Positions 6,176 to 25,440 of a stretch of 25,440 bases of DNA are shown here, piece after piece (within the stretch, counting starts at the first letter, position 1; every line of letters begins with the position of its first letter). Location: positions 1 through 25,440 of IMG/VR virus record IMGVR_UViG_3300025759_000633; one strand, 5' to 3'. The DNA is from a virus. The translations under genes were made by a program, and so were the position numbers. The notes beneath the pieces are model-generated. The model was not told the origin of the DNA, searched no databases, and worked only from the letters and a program-made list of their open reading frames with translations.

Positions 6176-7113
6176 TATAATGCCCTAATGTCTACACTAC
6201 CTGAATTATATACTCCTGTTCTTGGTATGAAAGTTGAACGCAAATAAGAAAACTTATTAACTAATAAGGTTTGCATATTTTTAATACCTTGTTCAAAGCG
6301 TTGCATATTTAATTGATACTGTTGAGTTTCACCTCGGTATTGATAAACAAACGCTGTAGCACCATCAATAATCACTGGAGCAAATCTATCAGGTATAGTT
6401 GTTGTATCATCTTGTGCTGATAAATCAGTAGGAAAAGTGTAATAATCAAACTTAATTACATAAGATTTATTTGGGAAAGGATAAAGAAGATAATTATTAT
6501 CAGGTGTCCTTACTACATATTCAGGAACACCACCTCTATCAAATTGAGCAACAGTTATTCCACTCGCTATGGAAGCTGCTGTGGTACTTCCTGCACCTCT
6601 TGTACAACCTGTAAATGTTGTACTAGTAGTTCCTGTATAGGTTATAGTTTCATTTCCTATAACTATTGTTCCCGCACTATCAAATCCTGTAGTGCTTACA
6701 ACTGTAATTGTAGTTACACTATCTGTATGTGTTGTACTAGTAGTTGTAGTATTTATTTCATCTTCTTGATTTACAACTCTATTTATGTAATCATTATAAT
6801 CAAGCATTCCTAGTTTGTATCCACTATTACCTAAATCACTATCTTTAACTATTCTAAATGTATTATAATCTACTGTTTTAGTAGATGTGGGTAAATCATA
6901 TCTAACAACACCTGCTGTTAGTGTCTTAGTTTCTGTAGCATGATTAAATGGATAATTAAATTCTCTTTGATTAATATATCTAATTGATTCATTAACTGCG
7001 TTTTGGCATTGAACTTGTATACCCCTAGCACTAGAAAAAGTTGAAGAAGTTAATACAACCTCGTTCAATCTTGCTATTACTTTATTTGTTAGTGTTAGGT
7101 AAGTTTCTGCCAT
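6175..7113 (-). CDS. Head-to-tail adaptor (tail tubular protein A-like) with inserted domain
   Basis: The 312-aa product begins with a helical region (LTLTNKVIARLNEV; NAVNESIRYINQREFNYPFN, residues 39-58) and has FRIVKDS and LGMLDYNDYINR (residues 101-112), which match adaptor proteins of the T7 gp11 / P22 gp4 type. These form the ring below the portal. GVPEYVVRTPDNNYLLYPFP and VIKFDYYTFPTDLS (residues 195-231) complete the core. Between them, residues 121-190 form a very T/S-rich beta segment (FDSAGTIVIGNETITYTG, TFTGCTRGAGSTT) of a kind usually seen in fibres. It interrupts the adaptor core and is probably a surface domain. The start at 7113 follows a short gap; the stop overlaps the nozzle start. 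Confidence 0.86.
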   Translation of the reverse strand: MAETYLTLTNKVIARLNEVVLTSSTFSSARGIQVQCQNAVNESIRYINQREFNYPFNHATETKTLTAGVVRYDLPTSTKTVDYNTFRIVKDSDLGNSGYKLGMLDYNDYINRVVNQEDEINTTTTSTTHTDSVTTITVVSTTGFDSAGTIVIGNETITYTGTTSTTFTGCTRGAGSTTAASIASGITVAQFDRGGVPEYVVRTPDNNYLLYPFPNKSYVIKFDYYTFPTDLSAQDDTTTIPDRFAPVIIDGATAFVYQYRGETQQYQLNMQRFEQGIKNMQTLLVNKFSYLRSTFIPRTGVYNSGSVDIRAL

Positions 7114-8991: not shown

Positions 8992-9876
8992 TTATCTAGC
9001 ATTACCAGAGACATCATAAATAAAGTTACCACTACGGATAGCTTCCATTATACTTTCTGATTTTTTCTCATACTCTTTAGCACTCATTTTTTGAACTGCT
9101 GACTCACGGATTTTGTTACTACTCCCTTCAGCATCAATATTTGTTCTTGTGCTTTGAGTATTAACTGCTTTAGCAGCAGTCTTATCACTCTTTGTCTTAG
9201 TTCCCTTGTTAATACCTCTATCTGCTTTGTAGAGATCAATTGCTCTTGCTGCTGATCTTGCATCATTATCATTCTCATATAGTGCGTCTTGTACCCATTT
9301 AGGCTGTTCTTCTGCCCATTCGTGAAAATCATCACTTTCTCTTATATCTGTAAAGTCTGGATGTAGCGACAATAATTGTGCTTCAGCTTTATCTTTTACA
9401 GCATTGTGTTGCATTTCATCTATTTGCTTAACACGTTCTTCTAAAGCTTTAGATTGCTCCATAGCTTTCTTCATAGCTATTGTTTCTACAATCTTTGCAA
9501 CATCAGGGTAATCTTTTGCCCATGCCTCTATATCTTCATCAGACTTTGGCAATTTCATTTCTTTCTTAGTAGCTTGTTCTAACTGAGTCTTTAACTCATT
9601 TAGCTGATTTTGAAATTGCTTTTCTTTCTCTTGGGTATGTCTGCGTAAATCTCCGTATCGCTTCTTGAAAGTTTTTTCTTCAGCAGAAGTCGGTTCTGCT
9701 TCACTTTCCTCTTTCTCCTCGCTAGTCTCTTTTGAACCTTTTTGCTCTTCAATGAGCCTTGCAAGTTCTTCTTCATCTTTCTTTAATCTCTCTTCTTGAG
9801 AATAAGGTCTGCTTATAAATGCTTTTTTAGTTGGTGTAGCATCTTTCACCATTACGTCTTTAGCTGGTTCTGCCAT
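8992..9876 (-). CDS. Capsid scaffolding protein
   Basis: The 294-aa product is extremely charged (E/K-rich), lacks Cys, and is mostly predicted coiled coil: EERLKKDEEELARLIEEQKG, then TFKKRYGDLRRHTQEKEKQF near residues 68-87, and a long LEERVKQIDEMQ helix. The tail is a basic, flexible segment ending NFIYDVSGNAR. It lies immediately before the major capsid gene, where scaffold genes of podovirus-like phages sit, and has AGGAG 7 bases before ATG 9876. Scaffolds direct procapsid assembly and leave or are lost on maturation. Sequence divergence is normal in this family, so the call rests on composition plus position. Confidence 0.87.
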   Translation of the reverse strand: MAEPAKDVMVKDATPTKKAFISRPYSQEERLKKDEEELARLIEEQKGSKETSEEKEESEAEPTSAEEKTFKKRYGDLRRHTQEKEKQFQNQLNELKTQLEQATKKEMKLPKSDEDIEAWAKDYPDVAKIVETIAMKKAMEQSKALEERVKQIDEMQHNAVKDKAEAQLLSLHPDFTDIRESDDFHEWAEEQPKWVQDALYENDNDARSAARAIDLYKADRGINKGTKTKSDKTAAKAVNTQSTRTNIDAEGSSNKIRESAVQKMSAKEYEKKSESIMEAIRSGNFIYDVSGNAR

Positions 9877-16017: not shown

Positions 16018-17586
16018 TTAATATCCAAATGTAGCATCTGCTACTGGCATAGAGTGTGTTGGAACACCTCTTGGGTCATAGTCAAATAAGCTAAACCGTG
16101 GTCTTGACATTATACCATATCTTAATGCATCATACAAGTGATCTTCTGATAATGTGTCAATATCTTCAGGATTCTTCTTATCAATAGGCAAAGATGGTAA
16201 TTGTGCAGTTATATTAGTGCAGTTATTAAAAAATACCAATCTTGGCTCTTCTGTAAACTCATCTACTTGCAAACGTCTGTGTATCTCGTTTTTACCTGCT
16301 ACACGACTACCTTTACTTCTGTCTGATGGTCTCCATCTACACCCTCTTTGTATCATTTGTTCTGCCAATGAAGGTCCTGTATCTCCACGTTTGTGCCATA
16401 AAGAGCTATCTAATACTCCGTATCTCATGCCACCATCGTTCTCTTCTAGCTCTAATATCATATCTGCCAAATCTGTGGCAAGGACTTTGCTAACATAGAG
16501 CTCTCTGTAGACAATGATTTGTTCAGAAGGTGATACAGCGAACCACAAAACACCAGACTTACTACCATAACCATAATCACATGCTCTAAACTTAACCCAA
16601 TTACTTGGTATAGCAAAAGGCTCAACAACGTGAATATTCCTATCAAACTCAGTAAATGCAGCACCTTCCTTAATATCCCAATCGCCATCAAGTAATTGAC
16701 GTCTTTGTTGTTCAGGTAATGATAATAGCATTGCCTCGTAATCCCCTTGCTCTGCAAGGTAAGGATTGTCTGATAATCGTGCAGGGATAAATCTCCTTTT
16801 AAATAAAGGTTTACCAGCCTTTGCATGTCCTGCTGGGTATCTAAGCACCTCTGTTGTTTCAATATCTGTAGCATCAAACGAGTTTCCATATGGAGCTGGG
16901 TCTATAAACATTTTTTTAACCCAGTGATGACCTCTACCTCCCGGGTTTGTTGTTGCTCTCATAAATATTGGTAAGTCTTTTGCTACTGACCTCAATCTAG
17001 AACGCATATAATTCCATGCGTATGGTGTTGCCCATTGTGTTAATTCATCAAAGCCTATCCAACTAAATGCTAAACCTTGATATCTTAATACGTCATCGTC
17101 TCTATCTAGATAAGACATCCACAACCTTGCACCTGATGGTGCTACCCATTGCATTTTTCTTTCTGACCATTTAATTCCCGGATATATCTTTGGATATAAC
17201 TCTTGAGATTTAAATATCAATTCTCTTAATTCTTCAGTTGTGTGTCTTAACAACAGACCACTAAATGATGGATGACTCATATATCTTAATGGGTCTGCTA
17301 ACATGGCATAACTTTTGCCACCACCAGCACTTCCACCATAAAGCACTTCTCGTTCTCCAGCTGCTAAAAATTCTGTCTGAGGTCCTTCATTTGGTTTAAA
17401 TATAACATTGTGCGTTTGCTCAATGGGTAGTTCTTCTATATCTTCAACCTCTTGGACTTTAGACTCAAGAATAGGCTTTTGCACCTGTTCTTTCTTCTTC
17501 AATTTCTTTCGCCTTGGAGATCGCCGCTTCTGCATACTCTGCCCACTTGCGTAGGCTTCTAGCTTGGTTCTTACGTCTTTGCTCAT
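16018..17586 (-). CDS. terL: Terminase large subunit
   Basis: The 522-aa protein carries the full packaging motor signature. The ATPase has Walker A GGSAGGGKS (84-92), Walker B SWIGFDE (175-181, D180/E181) and a coupling TTNPGG (212-217). The RNase H-like nuclease has acidic residues at ACDYG (D337), GVLDSS (D393) and EDHLYDAL (D482/D486). The basic N-terminal 35 residues (SPRRKKLKKKEQVQK) overlap the upstream 139-aa gene in another frame; M18 (17535) is an alternative start. TerL cuts concatemeric DNA and pumps it through the portal. All key residues are present, so it should be active. It lies directly upstream of the portal. Confidence 0.96.
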   Translation of the reverse strand: MSKDVRTKLEAYASGQSMQKRRSPRRKKLKKKEQVQKPILESKVQEVEDIEELPIEQTHNVIFKPNEGPQTEFLAAGEREVLYGGSAGGGKSYAMLADPLRYMSHPSFSGLLLRHTTEELRELIFKSQELYPKIYPGIKWSERKMQWVAPSGARLWMSYLDRDDDVLRYQGLAFSWIGFDELTQWATPYAWNYMRSRLRSVAKDLPIFMRATTNPGGRGHHWVKKMFIDPAPYGNSFDATDIETTEVLRYPAGHAKAGKPLFKRRFIPARLSDNPYLAEQGDYEAMLLSLPEQQRRQLLDGDWDIKEGAAFTEFDRNIHVVEPFAIPSNWVKFRACDYGYGSKSGVLWFAVSPSEQIIVYRELYVSKVLATDLADMILELEENDGGMRYGVLDSSLWHKRGDTGPSLAEQMIQRGCRWRPSDRSKGSRVAGKNEIHRRLQVDEFTEEPRLVFFNNCTNITAQLPSLPIDKKNPEDIDTLSEDHLYDALRYGIMSRPRFSLFDYDPRGVPTHSMPVADATFGY

Positions 17587-23834: not shown

Positions 23835-24038
23835 TTAATCTGTCCACCCTTCTGCTCTCATTGCTGTCTCAACATGCTTCAGAGTAAAAGGTCTACCGTA
23901 ATGAGCCTCTACTGCTGCTCTTACGTAATGGACATCACTATGTGGTATGTGCAATTTATCTACTTTGTTATCACGGATAGCAAGATAAAAAGCTTCTAGC
24001 ACATTATCTGTATATAGTTTTACTGATTTTTTACTCAT
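23835..24038 (-). CDS. First gene of the leftward block, 67-aa hypothetical protein
   Basis: A TTG at 24044 extends the frame, but ATG 24038 is preferred, giving MSKKSVKLYTDNVLEAFYLA, then KLHIPHSDVHYVRAAVEAHY, GRPFTLKHVETAMRAEGWTD. It is a compact alpha/beta-looking protein with several His and a terminal WTD. It follows the consensus promoter by about 110 bases, with a weak ribosome site. I recall similar sequences in marine phages but know no function. As the first gene of the transcript it could be a regulator or simply a small conserved phage protein. Confidence 0.72.
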   Translation of the reverse strand: MSKKSVKLYTDNVLEAFYLAIRDNKVDKLHIPHSDVHYVRAAVEAHYGRPFTLKHVETAMRAEGWTD

Positions 24039-24149
24039 TGTCAAGTTTATTTCTAATTTGGGAAATTACGTAGTACATTATAAATGTATTTTTATATATA
24101 TTGTATATAATATTAAATGTTAACACTTTCAATGTACTAGTTATACGTA

Positions 24150-24178
24150 ATTATATCATGTATTTTTTAGTCTGTCAA
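24150..24178 (-). promoter_or_regulatory. Consensus sigma70-type promoter for the leftward block
   Basis: On the minus strand, TTGACA (24178-24173), a 17-base spacer and TATAAT (24155-24150) are a perfect match to the bacterial consensus. Transcription would start near 24143, about 105 bases before the first gene. It is the obvious driver of the small-gene, lysis and packaging genes that follow with no other strong promoter until 8987. Confidence 0.87.
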
Positions 24179-24390
24179 GACATTTTATATGTAAGCACCC
24201 CGCCGCAGTCATTTTATGTATAATTAAGGCTATTTAAAGACACTTTTATGTATATTTTTATCACTTATTATTGTGGTTAACACCTAAAATTCCTAATCTG
24301 TGTATTTATACATATATATAACGTAGTACGGGGGGTGTGGCTGTGGCGTAGTGGCAAAAAAAGATAGTAAATTCAATATTGCAAGTGATT

Positions 24391-24447
24391 TTGATAACAA
24401 TTCTCATTATCATTTGCATTAAGTTATTGATAATGCTTATCATTTTC
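24391..24447. promoter_or_regulatory. Fur-box-like sites 1 and 2
   Basis: Site 1 is TGATAACAATTCTCA (24392-24406), 13 of 15 to the Fur 7-1-7 box TGATAATNATTATCA. Site 2 is TGATAATGCTTATCA (24428-24442), 14 of 15, with perfect 6-base arms. Match counts treat N as matched. They lie left of the first sigma54-like element. Confidence 0.68.
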
Positions 24448-24479: not shown

Positions 24480-24495
24480 TGGCATCATTCTTGCA
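24480..24495 (+). promoter_or_regulatory. Sigma54-like -24/-12 element 1
   Basis: TGGCATCATTCTTGCA matches TGGCAC-N5-TTGCW with one mismatch, and the invariant GG and GC are 10 bases apart as required. Confidence 0.6.
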
Positions 24496-24497
24496 AT

Positions 24498-24513
24498 AGC
24501 ACAAACCGTGCCA
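24498..24513 (-). promoter_or_regulatory. Sigma54-like element on the minus strand (weaker)
   Basis: On the minus strand, TGGCACGGTTTGTGCT has a perfect -24 half and GTGCT at -12 (one mismatch), again with 10 bases between GG and GC. It could fire leftward or be part of an inverted TTGGCA/TGCCAA pair with element 1. Confidence 0.35.
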
Positions 24514-24543
24514 AATAAAAAAATATTTATGTAGGAGCATAAC

Positions 24544-24559
24544 TGGCACGATTCTTGCT
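24544..24559 (+). promoter_or_regulatory. Sigma54-like -24/-12 element 2
   Basis: TGGCACGATTCTTGCT is a full match to TGGCAC-N5-TTGCW with correct GG-to-GC spacing. It lies 11 bases before Fur-like site 3. Confidence 0.7.
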
Positions 24560-24569
24560 ACTATCCTAG

Positions 24570-24646
24570 TTGAGAATGGTTCTCAAAGGGAGAGTGATAA
24601 TCATTATCAACTTGAGAACCATTATCATATTGAGAATGATTCGCAG
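24570..24646. promoter_or_regulatory. Cluster of Fur-box-like sites 3 to 6
   Basis: Four sites with centres at 24578, 24602, 24620 and 24638 (24, 18 and 18 bases apart). Site 3, TTGAGAATGGTTCTCAA, has perfect 7-base arms. Site 4, TGATAATCATTATCA (24595-24609), is a perfect 15/15 7-1-7 box, and with flanks matches 17 of 19 bases of the classical Fur box. Site 5 is TGAGAACCATTATCA and site 6 is TGAGAATGATTCGCA. The array lies directly upstream of sigma54-like element 3. Confidence 0.78.
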
Positions 24647-24655
24647 GTAGAAAGT

Positions 24656-24671
24656 TGGCACGGCAATTGCA
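24656..24671 (+). promoter_or_regulatory. Sigma54-like -24/-12 element 3, nearest the rightward gene
   Basis: TGGCACGGCAATTGCA is a full match to TGGCAC-N5-TTGCW with the GG and GC 10 bases apart. A start near 24682 would give a leader of about 70 bases. I see no convincing sigma70-type promoter for this gene. Confidence 0.72.
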
Positions 24672-24711: not shown

Positions 24712-24726
24712 ATCCCAAGTTGGGAT
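24712..24726 (+). promoter_or_regulatory. Palindromic operator-like site, copy 1
   Basis: ATCCCAAGTTGGGAT is a perfect 7-1-7 palindrome located between the putative transcription start and the ribosome site of the rightward gene, where a bound repressor would block elongation. Confidence 0.6.
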
Positions 24727-24750: not shown

Positions 24751-25335
24751 ATGCTAAATTATAATGATCTAATAGTTAATACTTTAATTGAGACATCTAC
24801 AACAAATCTTTTAAAAGTTGTAAATTATGAAAAAACATCAGAAAATAATAAAGCAAAAAAAGTTGAAGAATTTGCTTTTAATATTTGTCATGTTGCAGAA
24901 AATGTATATTTTGCTGATTGTGAAATTAAGCAATATAAAGGCAAAGACAAAAAAGCATTTAAAATTGCAACTTTTGAGAAATATAAAATTGATGTTATTT
25001 TATCCCAAGTTGGGAAAAATGACGTTAAAGCATTAAAAATAATTGGTGAAAATGCTGAAACATTTTTTAATGAGTTTCAAAATAGTGAAACCAAAGCAAA
25101 TTCAATTCGTGGTTTTGCCAAACTTGTTAAAAAAGAAAATGAAGAAAAAACTTTGCAACAAAAAATTGAGGCTTTTATTAAATCAAATACTACAAAAAAA
25201 GCTGACGATAATAAATTATCAATTGCTGAATTTACTAAAGAATTTTCCCAAGTTGCAGAAAAAATGCTTAAAGAAAATAATAAAAATATAGTTGATTTTT
25301 TACCAACCAAAGAAGAAATAGAAAAAACTGGATAA
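24751..25335 (+). CDS. Rightward 194-aa protein of unknown function under unusual control
   Basis: ATG 24751 has AAGGAAAG about 10 bases upstream. The product, MLNYNDLIVNTLIETSTTNL onward, is very rich in K, N and E, with no signal peptide or TM segment. An N-terminal mixed alpha/beta part (EFAFNICHVAENVYFADCEI, then KKAFKIATFEKYKIDVILSQ) is followed by a helical, charged C-terminal half (ENEEKTLQQKIEAFIKSN; IAEFTKEFSQVAEKMLKENN). I recognise no family. It is the only rightward gene in the window and more AT-rich than the structural genes. Its gene contains a second palindrome and a partial third. A role early in infection or in the host response is inferred from position only. Confidence 0.85.
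   Translation: MLNYNDLIVNTLIETSTTNLLKVVNYEKTSENNKAKKVEEFAFNICHVAENVYFADCEIKQYKGKDKKAFKIATFEKYKIDVILSQVGKNDVKALKIIGENAETFFNEFQNSETKANSIRGFAKLVKKENEEKTLQQKIEAFIKSNTTKKADDNKLSIAEFTKEFSQVAEKMLKENNKNIVDFLPTKEEIEKTG
25002..25016 (+). repeat. Operator-like palindrome, copy 2 (inside the rightward gene)
   Basis: ATCCCAAGTTGGGA is shared exactly with the copy at 24712 (14 bases) and keeps the palindrome TCCCAA-G-TTGGGA. A related partial copy, TCCCAAGTTG, lies at 25246-25255 in the same gene. Confidence 0.6.
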
Positions 25336-25352
25336 CATCAAAAAATTATATT

Positions 25353-25390
25353 TGAGGCAATTAATTTTGCCTCATTTATTTTTTTTTTCT
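25353..25390 (+). terminator. Intrinsic terminator after the rightward gene
   Basis: The stem TGAGGCAA/TTGCCTCA (25353-25360 and 25367-25374) with a TTAATT loop is followed by a long T run (25379-25388). It lies 18 bases after the stop. Confidence 0.88.
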
Positions 25391-25432: not shown

Positions 25433-25440
25433 TGGCACGG
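25433..25440 (+). promoter_or_regulatory. Start of a further sigma54-like element at the window edge
   Basis: TGGCACGG ends the window, in the same AGTTGGCACGG context as element 3 (24654-24663). The -12 half lies outside, so it cannot be confirmed. A GTGGGGA tandem duplication precedes it (25405-25418). Confidence 0.4.

Follow-up and report, generated by a model that had tools for sequence, protein, structure and literature searches.

Putative host sigma54-type promoters interleaved with Fur-type boxes at the start of the rightward arm of an HMO-2011-type marine podovirus, and related site arrays in unrelated phages

Introduction

Phage early transcription is usually ascribed to host sigma70 or to a phage polymerase. 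The window analysed here, a viral record of 25,440 bases studied at the level of its sequence, raises the question of which host proteins read the noncoding DNA that precedes its rightward gene arm, since a first-pass annotation had found there three elements resembling sigma54 promoters and had proposed that they form an array sensing the state of the host, adding that the use of sigma54 by phages is rare. The locus is described below together with its relatives and with comparable arrays in other viruses, and the promoter reading is then weighed against the explanations that compete with it.

Results

The phage and the layout of its arms

The window is a piece of the genome of an HMO-2011-type marine podovirus. 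Its large terminase gene (16018..17586, minus strand) belongs to a leftward arm and is 84.7% identical to that of HMO-2011 and 83.7% identical to those of roseophages CRP-1 and CRP-345, while further leftward genes encode an SU10-type portal, the major capsid protein and additional proteins of the virion (Pfam and PHROG, the portal and capsid by PHROG matches). It is the terminase identity, taken together with the portal and capsid genes, that places the phage in this group, with which it shares homologous core structural genes, a leftward structural module and a syntenic end. Subgroup I of the HMO-2011-type phages infects SAR116 and Roseobacter strains (PMC9038755). As regards other clues to the host, no tRNA genes were found in the phage, and a terminase search of genome contigs was discarded, its matches being only phage contigs, apparently mis-binned into MAGs of Flavobacteriales, Neomarinimicrobiota, Gammaproteobacteria and Planctomycetes. 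In two cases (L089/L090 and L091/L092) HMO-2011-type phage contigs with the same name and the same length were binned in MAGs of two phyla (Flavobacteriales and Neomarinimicrobiota).

The last gene of the leftward structural arm, which encodes 69 aa (23835-24044, minus strand), is separated by a 706-bp intergenic gap, AT-rich and dense in short repeats, from the first gene of the rightward arm, an orphan ORF of 194 aa (24751..25335, plus strand). The leftward arm is served by a perfect extended sigma70 promoter, TTGACA-N17-TATAAT (24150..24178, minus strand, 12/12 matches), kept in 8 relatives, whereas the best score for a sigma70 promoter on the rightward arm does not exceed 9/12. The 194-aa ORF is followed by an intrinsic terminator (25353..25374, plus strand), whose flanks align in L011, L014 and L016; neither this terminator nor the leftward sigma70 promoter had appeared in the first-pass annotation. 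The ORF has no Pfam or PHROG match, and six peptide patterns drawn from it retrieved no relative; it is 68% and 46% identical to its homologues in L014 and L016, respectively. The first-pass annotation had supposed that the gene served by the elements might be an early or lysogeny-type one; the lineage does have an integrase farther along.

Two further repeats deserve mention. A 13-mer, TCCCAAGTTGGGA, is found at 24713..24725 on the plus strand, with a second copy in the same orientation at 25003-25015 inside the 194-aa ORF, and may form a 5'-UTR hairpin or an operator. In L014 and L016 the pattern TCC[C/T]AAGTT[G/A]GGA, always with the central G on the coding strand, occurs in the 5' leaders of successive early genes; L016 has five copies and the form TCCTAAGTTAGGA, and the arms co-vary between phages, which fits either a hairpin in the RNA or recognition of the repeat as an operator by a phage-encoded protein. 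A G-tract, ACGGGGGGTG, lies at 24328-24340; it is also enriched near arrays in other phages, among the matches listed (many of L101-L220), where 9-10 of 65 loci have it and 0.5-1.5 would be expected to, and is possibly a packaging or genome-end mark.

Sigma54-type elements in the window

The window contains exactly three matches to TGGCAY-N5-TTGCW, all on the plus strand and each with GG-N10-GC spacing, just as had been described: P1 (TGGCATCATTCTTGCA, 24480..24495), P2 (TGGCACGATTCTTGCT, 24544..24559) and P3 (TGGCACGGCAATTGCA, 24656..24671), the last of which stands 79 bp before the 194-aa ORF. The weaker copy reported on the minus strand is real as well; this element, Pm (TGGCACGGTTTGTGCT, 24513-24498), has one mismatch and faces P1 at an offset of 18 bp, so that the two cannot be occupied at once. 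The half-site noticed at the window edge, designated P4 (TGGCACGG, 25433..25440, plus strand), is a -24 half cut by the end of the window, and extension to the right through relatives L014 and L016 completes it as TGGCACGGATATTGCA, with a score of 25. P4 is located immediately after the terminator and ahead of the next ORF, which is seen in the relatives; as P3 and P4 thus stand in front of two separate units, their placement is promoter-like.

In dinucleotide-shuffled versions of the 706-bp gap the TGGCAY-N5-TTGCW pattern occurred 0.002 times on average, with a maximum of 1 in 2000 shuffles, against the 3 observed, and the mean for the shuffled whole window was 0.083. When both strands were scored with a matrix built from other phages only, and not from the window, the four top sites were P3, P2, P1 and Pm (24.2, 23.4, 16.0 and 15.8, respectively), the next one scoring 8.5; scores of 16-24 on this other-phage matrix mean that the window sites also follow the extended consensus mrNrYTGGCACG-N4-TTGCWNNw.

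Relatives were collected using the 69-aa gene, and the closest of them (L010, L011, L012 and L014-L017) hold the elements at equal offsets as far as their contigs reach. P1 changes at only six spacer positions in seven relatives, TTGGCA and TTGCAATAG being invariant; variation in Pm is limited to three spacer positions; P2 is identical in all six relatives that cover it; and P3 is kept in L011, L014, L015 and L016, with two positions varying within the element, while the sequence of L012 diverges at the expected position. A fixed core with a variable spacer is the pattern expected of a putative -24/-12 element. In L016 a fifth exact site, a perfect TGGCACGTAAATTGCA identical to the P1 variant of L014, was observed at early-arm offset 3547 (locus 6441-6456, minus strand); it lies inside an ORF (KVARKLQ) and was treated as probably due to chance.

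The sigma54 reading of these elements is thus well supported as far as sequence can tell, given that spacing, core, flanks and conservation match sigma54 recognition and that the elements point into the rightward arm. They are very probably bound by host sigma54, and it is somewhat more likely than not that they would act as productive promoters. No convincing activator site was found in the window, and an enhancer-binding protein gene, which the first-pass annotation had suggested looking for, was searched for as PF00158 and counted 0 times across 13 phage records (this phage and 12 related records, most of them fragments). Window-style elements are, by matrix scoring, absent from HMO-2011, CRP-1 and other HMO-2011-type loci, and the sigma54 array is therefore a trait of this clade. 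Some other HMO-2011-type phages (L034, L074, L075, L079 and L082) have one or two Fur-type boxes, and no sigma54 sites, in the corresponding noncoding gap.

Fur-type boxes among the elements

About six Fur-type boxes, overlooked in the first-pass annotation, are interleaved with the sigma54-type elements. They were found by matching to the 15-mer consensus TGATAATNATTATCA, a 7-1-7 palindrome of GATAAT-type hexamers, one of them perfectly and the other five with 1-3 mismatches; four of the boxes have at most two mismatches, against 0.018 such boxes in shuffles. Array A (24392..24442) consists of TGATAACAATTCTCA (24392-24406) and TGATAATGCTTATCA (24428-24442), and array B (24571..24645) of boxes starting at 24571, 24595 (the perfect TGATAATCATTATCA), 24613 and 24631, which means that it begins approximately at the transcription start expected for P2. 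In the relatives array A is kept as an array with changes in its units, and counterparts of array B with rearranged units are present in L011, L012, L014, L015 and L016.

It is likely that these boxes are bound by a regulator of the Fur type; that Fur gates the promoters of the window is a more tentative suggestion. In an alphaproteobacterial host RirA or another reader of TGA-N9-TCA is possible, and the boxes could then be read by an iron regulator other than Fur. Since a Fur-box array accompanies the sigma54-type elements, the sensing of the host state that had been proposed for the locus becomes more plausible.

Sigma54-type arrays in other viruses

When viral contigs were scanned for pairs of sigma54 sites separated by 35-65 bp, at least 120 loci matched, as compared with 0 for a scrambled motif in the same pattern; the loci hold at least 572 sites, as compared with 0 in a reversed-sequence control. 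The view that phages rarely use sigma54 is accordingly not supported, paired sigma54-type sites being present in at least 120 viral contigs. The matches listed fall into at least 52 unrelated clusters, the largest with at least 62 members, and their GC content ranges from 0.30 to 0.64. The flanks of 497 clustered sites among the matches listed, which lie outside the query, read A, R, A, G, Y before TGGCA; these unsearched positions fit the extended sigma54 consensus published on the basis of 186 promoters (PMC2725144).

Among the matches listed, the spacings that recur are 25-29 bp for sites on the same strand and 18-21 bp for sites placed face-to-face, as in the window, where P1 and Pm are 18 bp apart. 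Up to 10 sites occur within 300 bp, often overlapping or face-to-face; 23% of the sites have a same-strand neighbour at most 40 bp downstream and 22% an opposite facing site at most 25 bp away; and the nearest codirectional ORF is found at a median of 229 bp downstream, against 410 bp in the other direction. Among the matches listed, arrays of the large family around L140/L180 are directed away from the side on which the packaging and lysis genes lie in 47 of the 53 non-tied loci with TerL and in all 41 with the endolysin, although these loci are related and therefore represent fewer independent polarity events than the counts suggest. The largest cluster (L102-L220) corresponds to a family of uncultured phages in which the start of the late genes is conserved (orf128, endolysin, TerL), and in its array the number and spacing of sites vary while the polarity is mostly kept.

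IHF-like sites were found near 13 of 65 arrays, against 4.4 expected, which may in part reflect noncoding composition, and NtrC-like sites were slightly enriched near other arrays, both among the matches listed. Several arrays have canonical sigma70 promoters downstream, those of the TTGACA-TATAAT type in 7 of 65 against 1.4, again among the matches listed; with sites so crowded and facing, and with sigma70 promoters following them, the arrays need not be the main promoters. No RpoN-like DNA-binding domain was found in 50 array-bearing records. The sigma54 pair pattern was absent from all 299 Pseudomonadota genomes scanned (approximately 1 Gb), a result which is suggestive only and from which no rate ratio between viruses and bacteria is claimed.

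Pairing of sigma54 and Fur sites, and T5-like phages

Of the 120 arrays among the matches listed, 13 have a Fur box with at most two mismatches no farther than 300 bp away, compared with 0.6 in shuffled sequence and 1.9 elsewhere in the loci. Sigma54 sites with a Fur box at a distance of 5-35 bp were sought in two scans, both complete, which returned 37 and 28 stretches belonging to 19 unrelated clusters, of which the clade of the window is one, and the scrambled-sigma54 control returned 0; one sigma54-then-Fur pattern tested in Pseudomonadota genomes was found in 0 of 299. A composite of fixed geometry, with sigma54 sites 8, 10 and 28 bp from a single Fur box, was observed in L154, L250, L253, L256, L261, L267 and L269 (also L244 and L246).

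Cultured carriers include the T5-like Vibrio phages VPT02, VPG01 and pVp-1 and the Aeromonas phage AhSzw-1. In VPT02 and VPG01 the start of a Fur-type box precedes the sigma54 site by 39 bp, within a long noncoding gap that also contains DnaA boxes, and the stretch homologous to this gap is annotated as the left terminal repeat in phage VF16. In phage T5 itself (AY543070, L287) the annotated injection stop signal contains two Fur-type boxes, at 9658 and 9699, together with a DnaA box, but the first 10.2 kb of the genome are free of sigma54 sites; a further Fur-type box is located at 233, near the left end. The injection stop signal has been described as having many repeats, palindromes and DnaA boxes, to which components of the host may bind (PMC13250531).

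Discussion

Taken as a whole, the region from 24.35 to 24.70 kb would be a control region opening a rightward, early-type arm. What the sequences show directly are the sites, their conservation around variable spacers, the lack of a good sigma70 promoter on this arm when the opposite arm has a perfect one, and the return of the sigma54-Fur pairing in unrelated phages. Binding by sigma54 and Fur, promoter activity, its timing and the identity of the activator are what we infer from the sites and their arrangement, and the sequence of events would be as follows. The coding strand would carry at least four elements for host RpoN, with P1, P2 and P3 standing ahead of the first gene and P4, past the terminator, ahead of the second, while Pm is reversed. 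Host RNA polymerase carrying sigma54 would bind them as closed complexes, which a host enhancer-binding ATPase would open under a certain nutrient or stress state of the host, giving early transcription, and iron-loaded Fur, or a Fur-like regulator, seated on array B over the start region of P2 and on array A, would lower it. In this way the phage may read the nitrogen or stress status and the iron status of its host jointly. To this whole explanation, in which host-RpoN promoters serve the early arm and are probably modulated by Fur, we assign a probability of about 0.55. The polarity of arrays in one phage family, the shorter distance to codirectional ORFs downstream and the enrichment of IHF-like sites speak for promoters; the mutual exclusion of P1 and Pm, the failure to find an activator gene in the records searched and the absence of the elements from other HMO-2011-type phages speak against.

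The most serious rival takes the sites to be decoys which, on a replicating genome, titrate host sigma54 and Fur and so damp stress, motility or nutrient responses, with no need for any promoter to fire. Such a sponge is physically possible, because RpoN can bind promoter DNA without core polymerase (PMC2725144), and it would account for the crowding of up to 10 overlapping or facing sites within 300 bp among the matches listed in other phages, which lowers the pure promoter reading, as well as for the gathering of sites for two global host regulators in one noncoding region, to which T5-like phages add DnaA boxes. A passive sponge, however, does not need the strong array polarity kept in one phage family, which lowers this reading in its pure form, and the window holds only four or five sites, with P3 and P4 placed singly before genes and P4 past a terminator. 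For the window the promoter reading is favoured by these few, well-placed and conserved elements, while the dense arrays found elsewhere keep titration a serious competitor; as an explanation of the present locus we consider it rather unlikely. A role in entry control, in which host proteins on the sites would act as roadblocks or landmarks while the DNA enters the cell, a role of the kind suggested for the injection stop signal of T5, draws on the long noncoding gaps with DnaA boxes of the T5-like Vibrio and Aeromonas phages, on the terminal-repeat annotation in VF16 and on the two Fur-type boxes and the DnaA box inside the T5 signal itself. The beginning of the T5 genome is nonetheless devoid of sigma54 sites, and HMO-2011-type podoviruses are not known to deliver their DNA in two steps, so that this role is improbable here.

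The first-pass annotation had also named the outcome that would overturn its reading, namely that the elements prove to be replication iterons or repressor sites. An array of operators or iterons read by a protein of the phage, with a likeness to sigma54 sites that is incidental, would suit sites that are repeated, dense, sometimes inverted and near packaging genes, and the overlapping and facing sites of many other phages are indeed something that plain promoters do not need. A private operator, though, should drift between lineages, whereas at least 52 unrelated clusters, over the whole GC range given above, agree with the host consensus in the core, the 4-bp spacer and the flanks, and in the 50 array-bearing records searched, with their lack of an RpoN-like domain, there is no obvious phage protein to bind it; we regard this explanation as slightly more improbable still than entry control. 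Chance resemblance, for which an AT-rich region full of short repeats might seem to offer room, is effectively refuted by the shuffled sequences and by conservation in the relatives. Host-RpoN promoters remain our preferred reading of the window.

The breadth of the arrays across phages and their pairing with Fur boxes make the locus more interesting than had first been thought. There is perhaps an even chance that they represent a widespread and undescribed class of phage control region, in which arrays of sigma54 and Fur sites, sometimes with DnaA boxes, occupy early or entry-side noncoding DNA and act as a two-input sensor or as a sponge. The full-text literature searched, the coverage of which leaves out most subscription journals, yielded no paper that describes arrays of sigma54 sites, or of sigma54 and Fur sites, in phages; a weak sigma54-like phage protein has been reported once (PMC7693777), which is a separate matter from arrays of sites. 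If at least 120 contigs in at least 52 unrelated clusters carry sigma54 arrays, in many cases next to Fur boxes, the timing of infection in sea and fresh water may follow nitrogen, stress and iron status, or, alternatively, phages may disarm the sigma54 and Fur regulons by titration. Both readings are directly testable, because sites are carried by cultured T5-like phages of Vibrio and Aeromonas and, in the case of Fur, by coliphage T5.

Among known systems, the -24/-12 promoters of host RpoN share with the phage elements the TGGCAY-N5-TTGCW core, the GG-N10-GC spacing and the mrNrY flank, and the phage elements differ in being clustered, in some cases overlapping or convergent, and in having no identified activator site. 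Bacterial promoters regulated by Fur boxes resemble the window in their overlapping arrays of 15-bp TGAKAAYNATTMTCA palindromes, but not in the pairing of the boxes with sigma54 elements in noncoding DNA. Within the phage's own group, HMO-2011, CRP-1 and CRP-345 have a terminase approximately 84% identical and the same layout of arms, and yet the early regions inspected in HMO-2011 and CRP-1 contain neither a sigma54 array nor one of Fur boxes. The T5 injection stop signal is similar to the regions with sigma54, Fur and DnaA sites in T5-like Vibrio and Aeromonas phages in being noncoding DNA of the first-entering end that holds sites for host proteins, although T5 itself has no sigma54 sites there, and the phage of the window, a podovirus, is not known to enter in two steps. 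Cyanophage genes under host PHO boxes are another instance of a phage tied to a nutrient-sensing regulator of its host, with different regulators, no alternative sigma factor and control of single auxiliary genes as opposed to the control region of an early arm. In its architecture the array recalls early promoters A1-A3 of T7, where three tandem promoters for the host polymerase stand at the start of the early arm: a tandem triple would open the arm here too, its members being of the sigma70 type in T7 and of the sigma54 type in the window.
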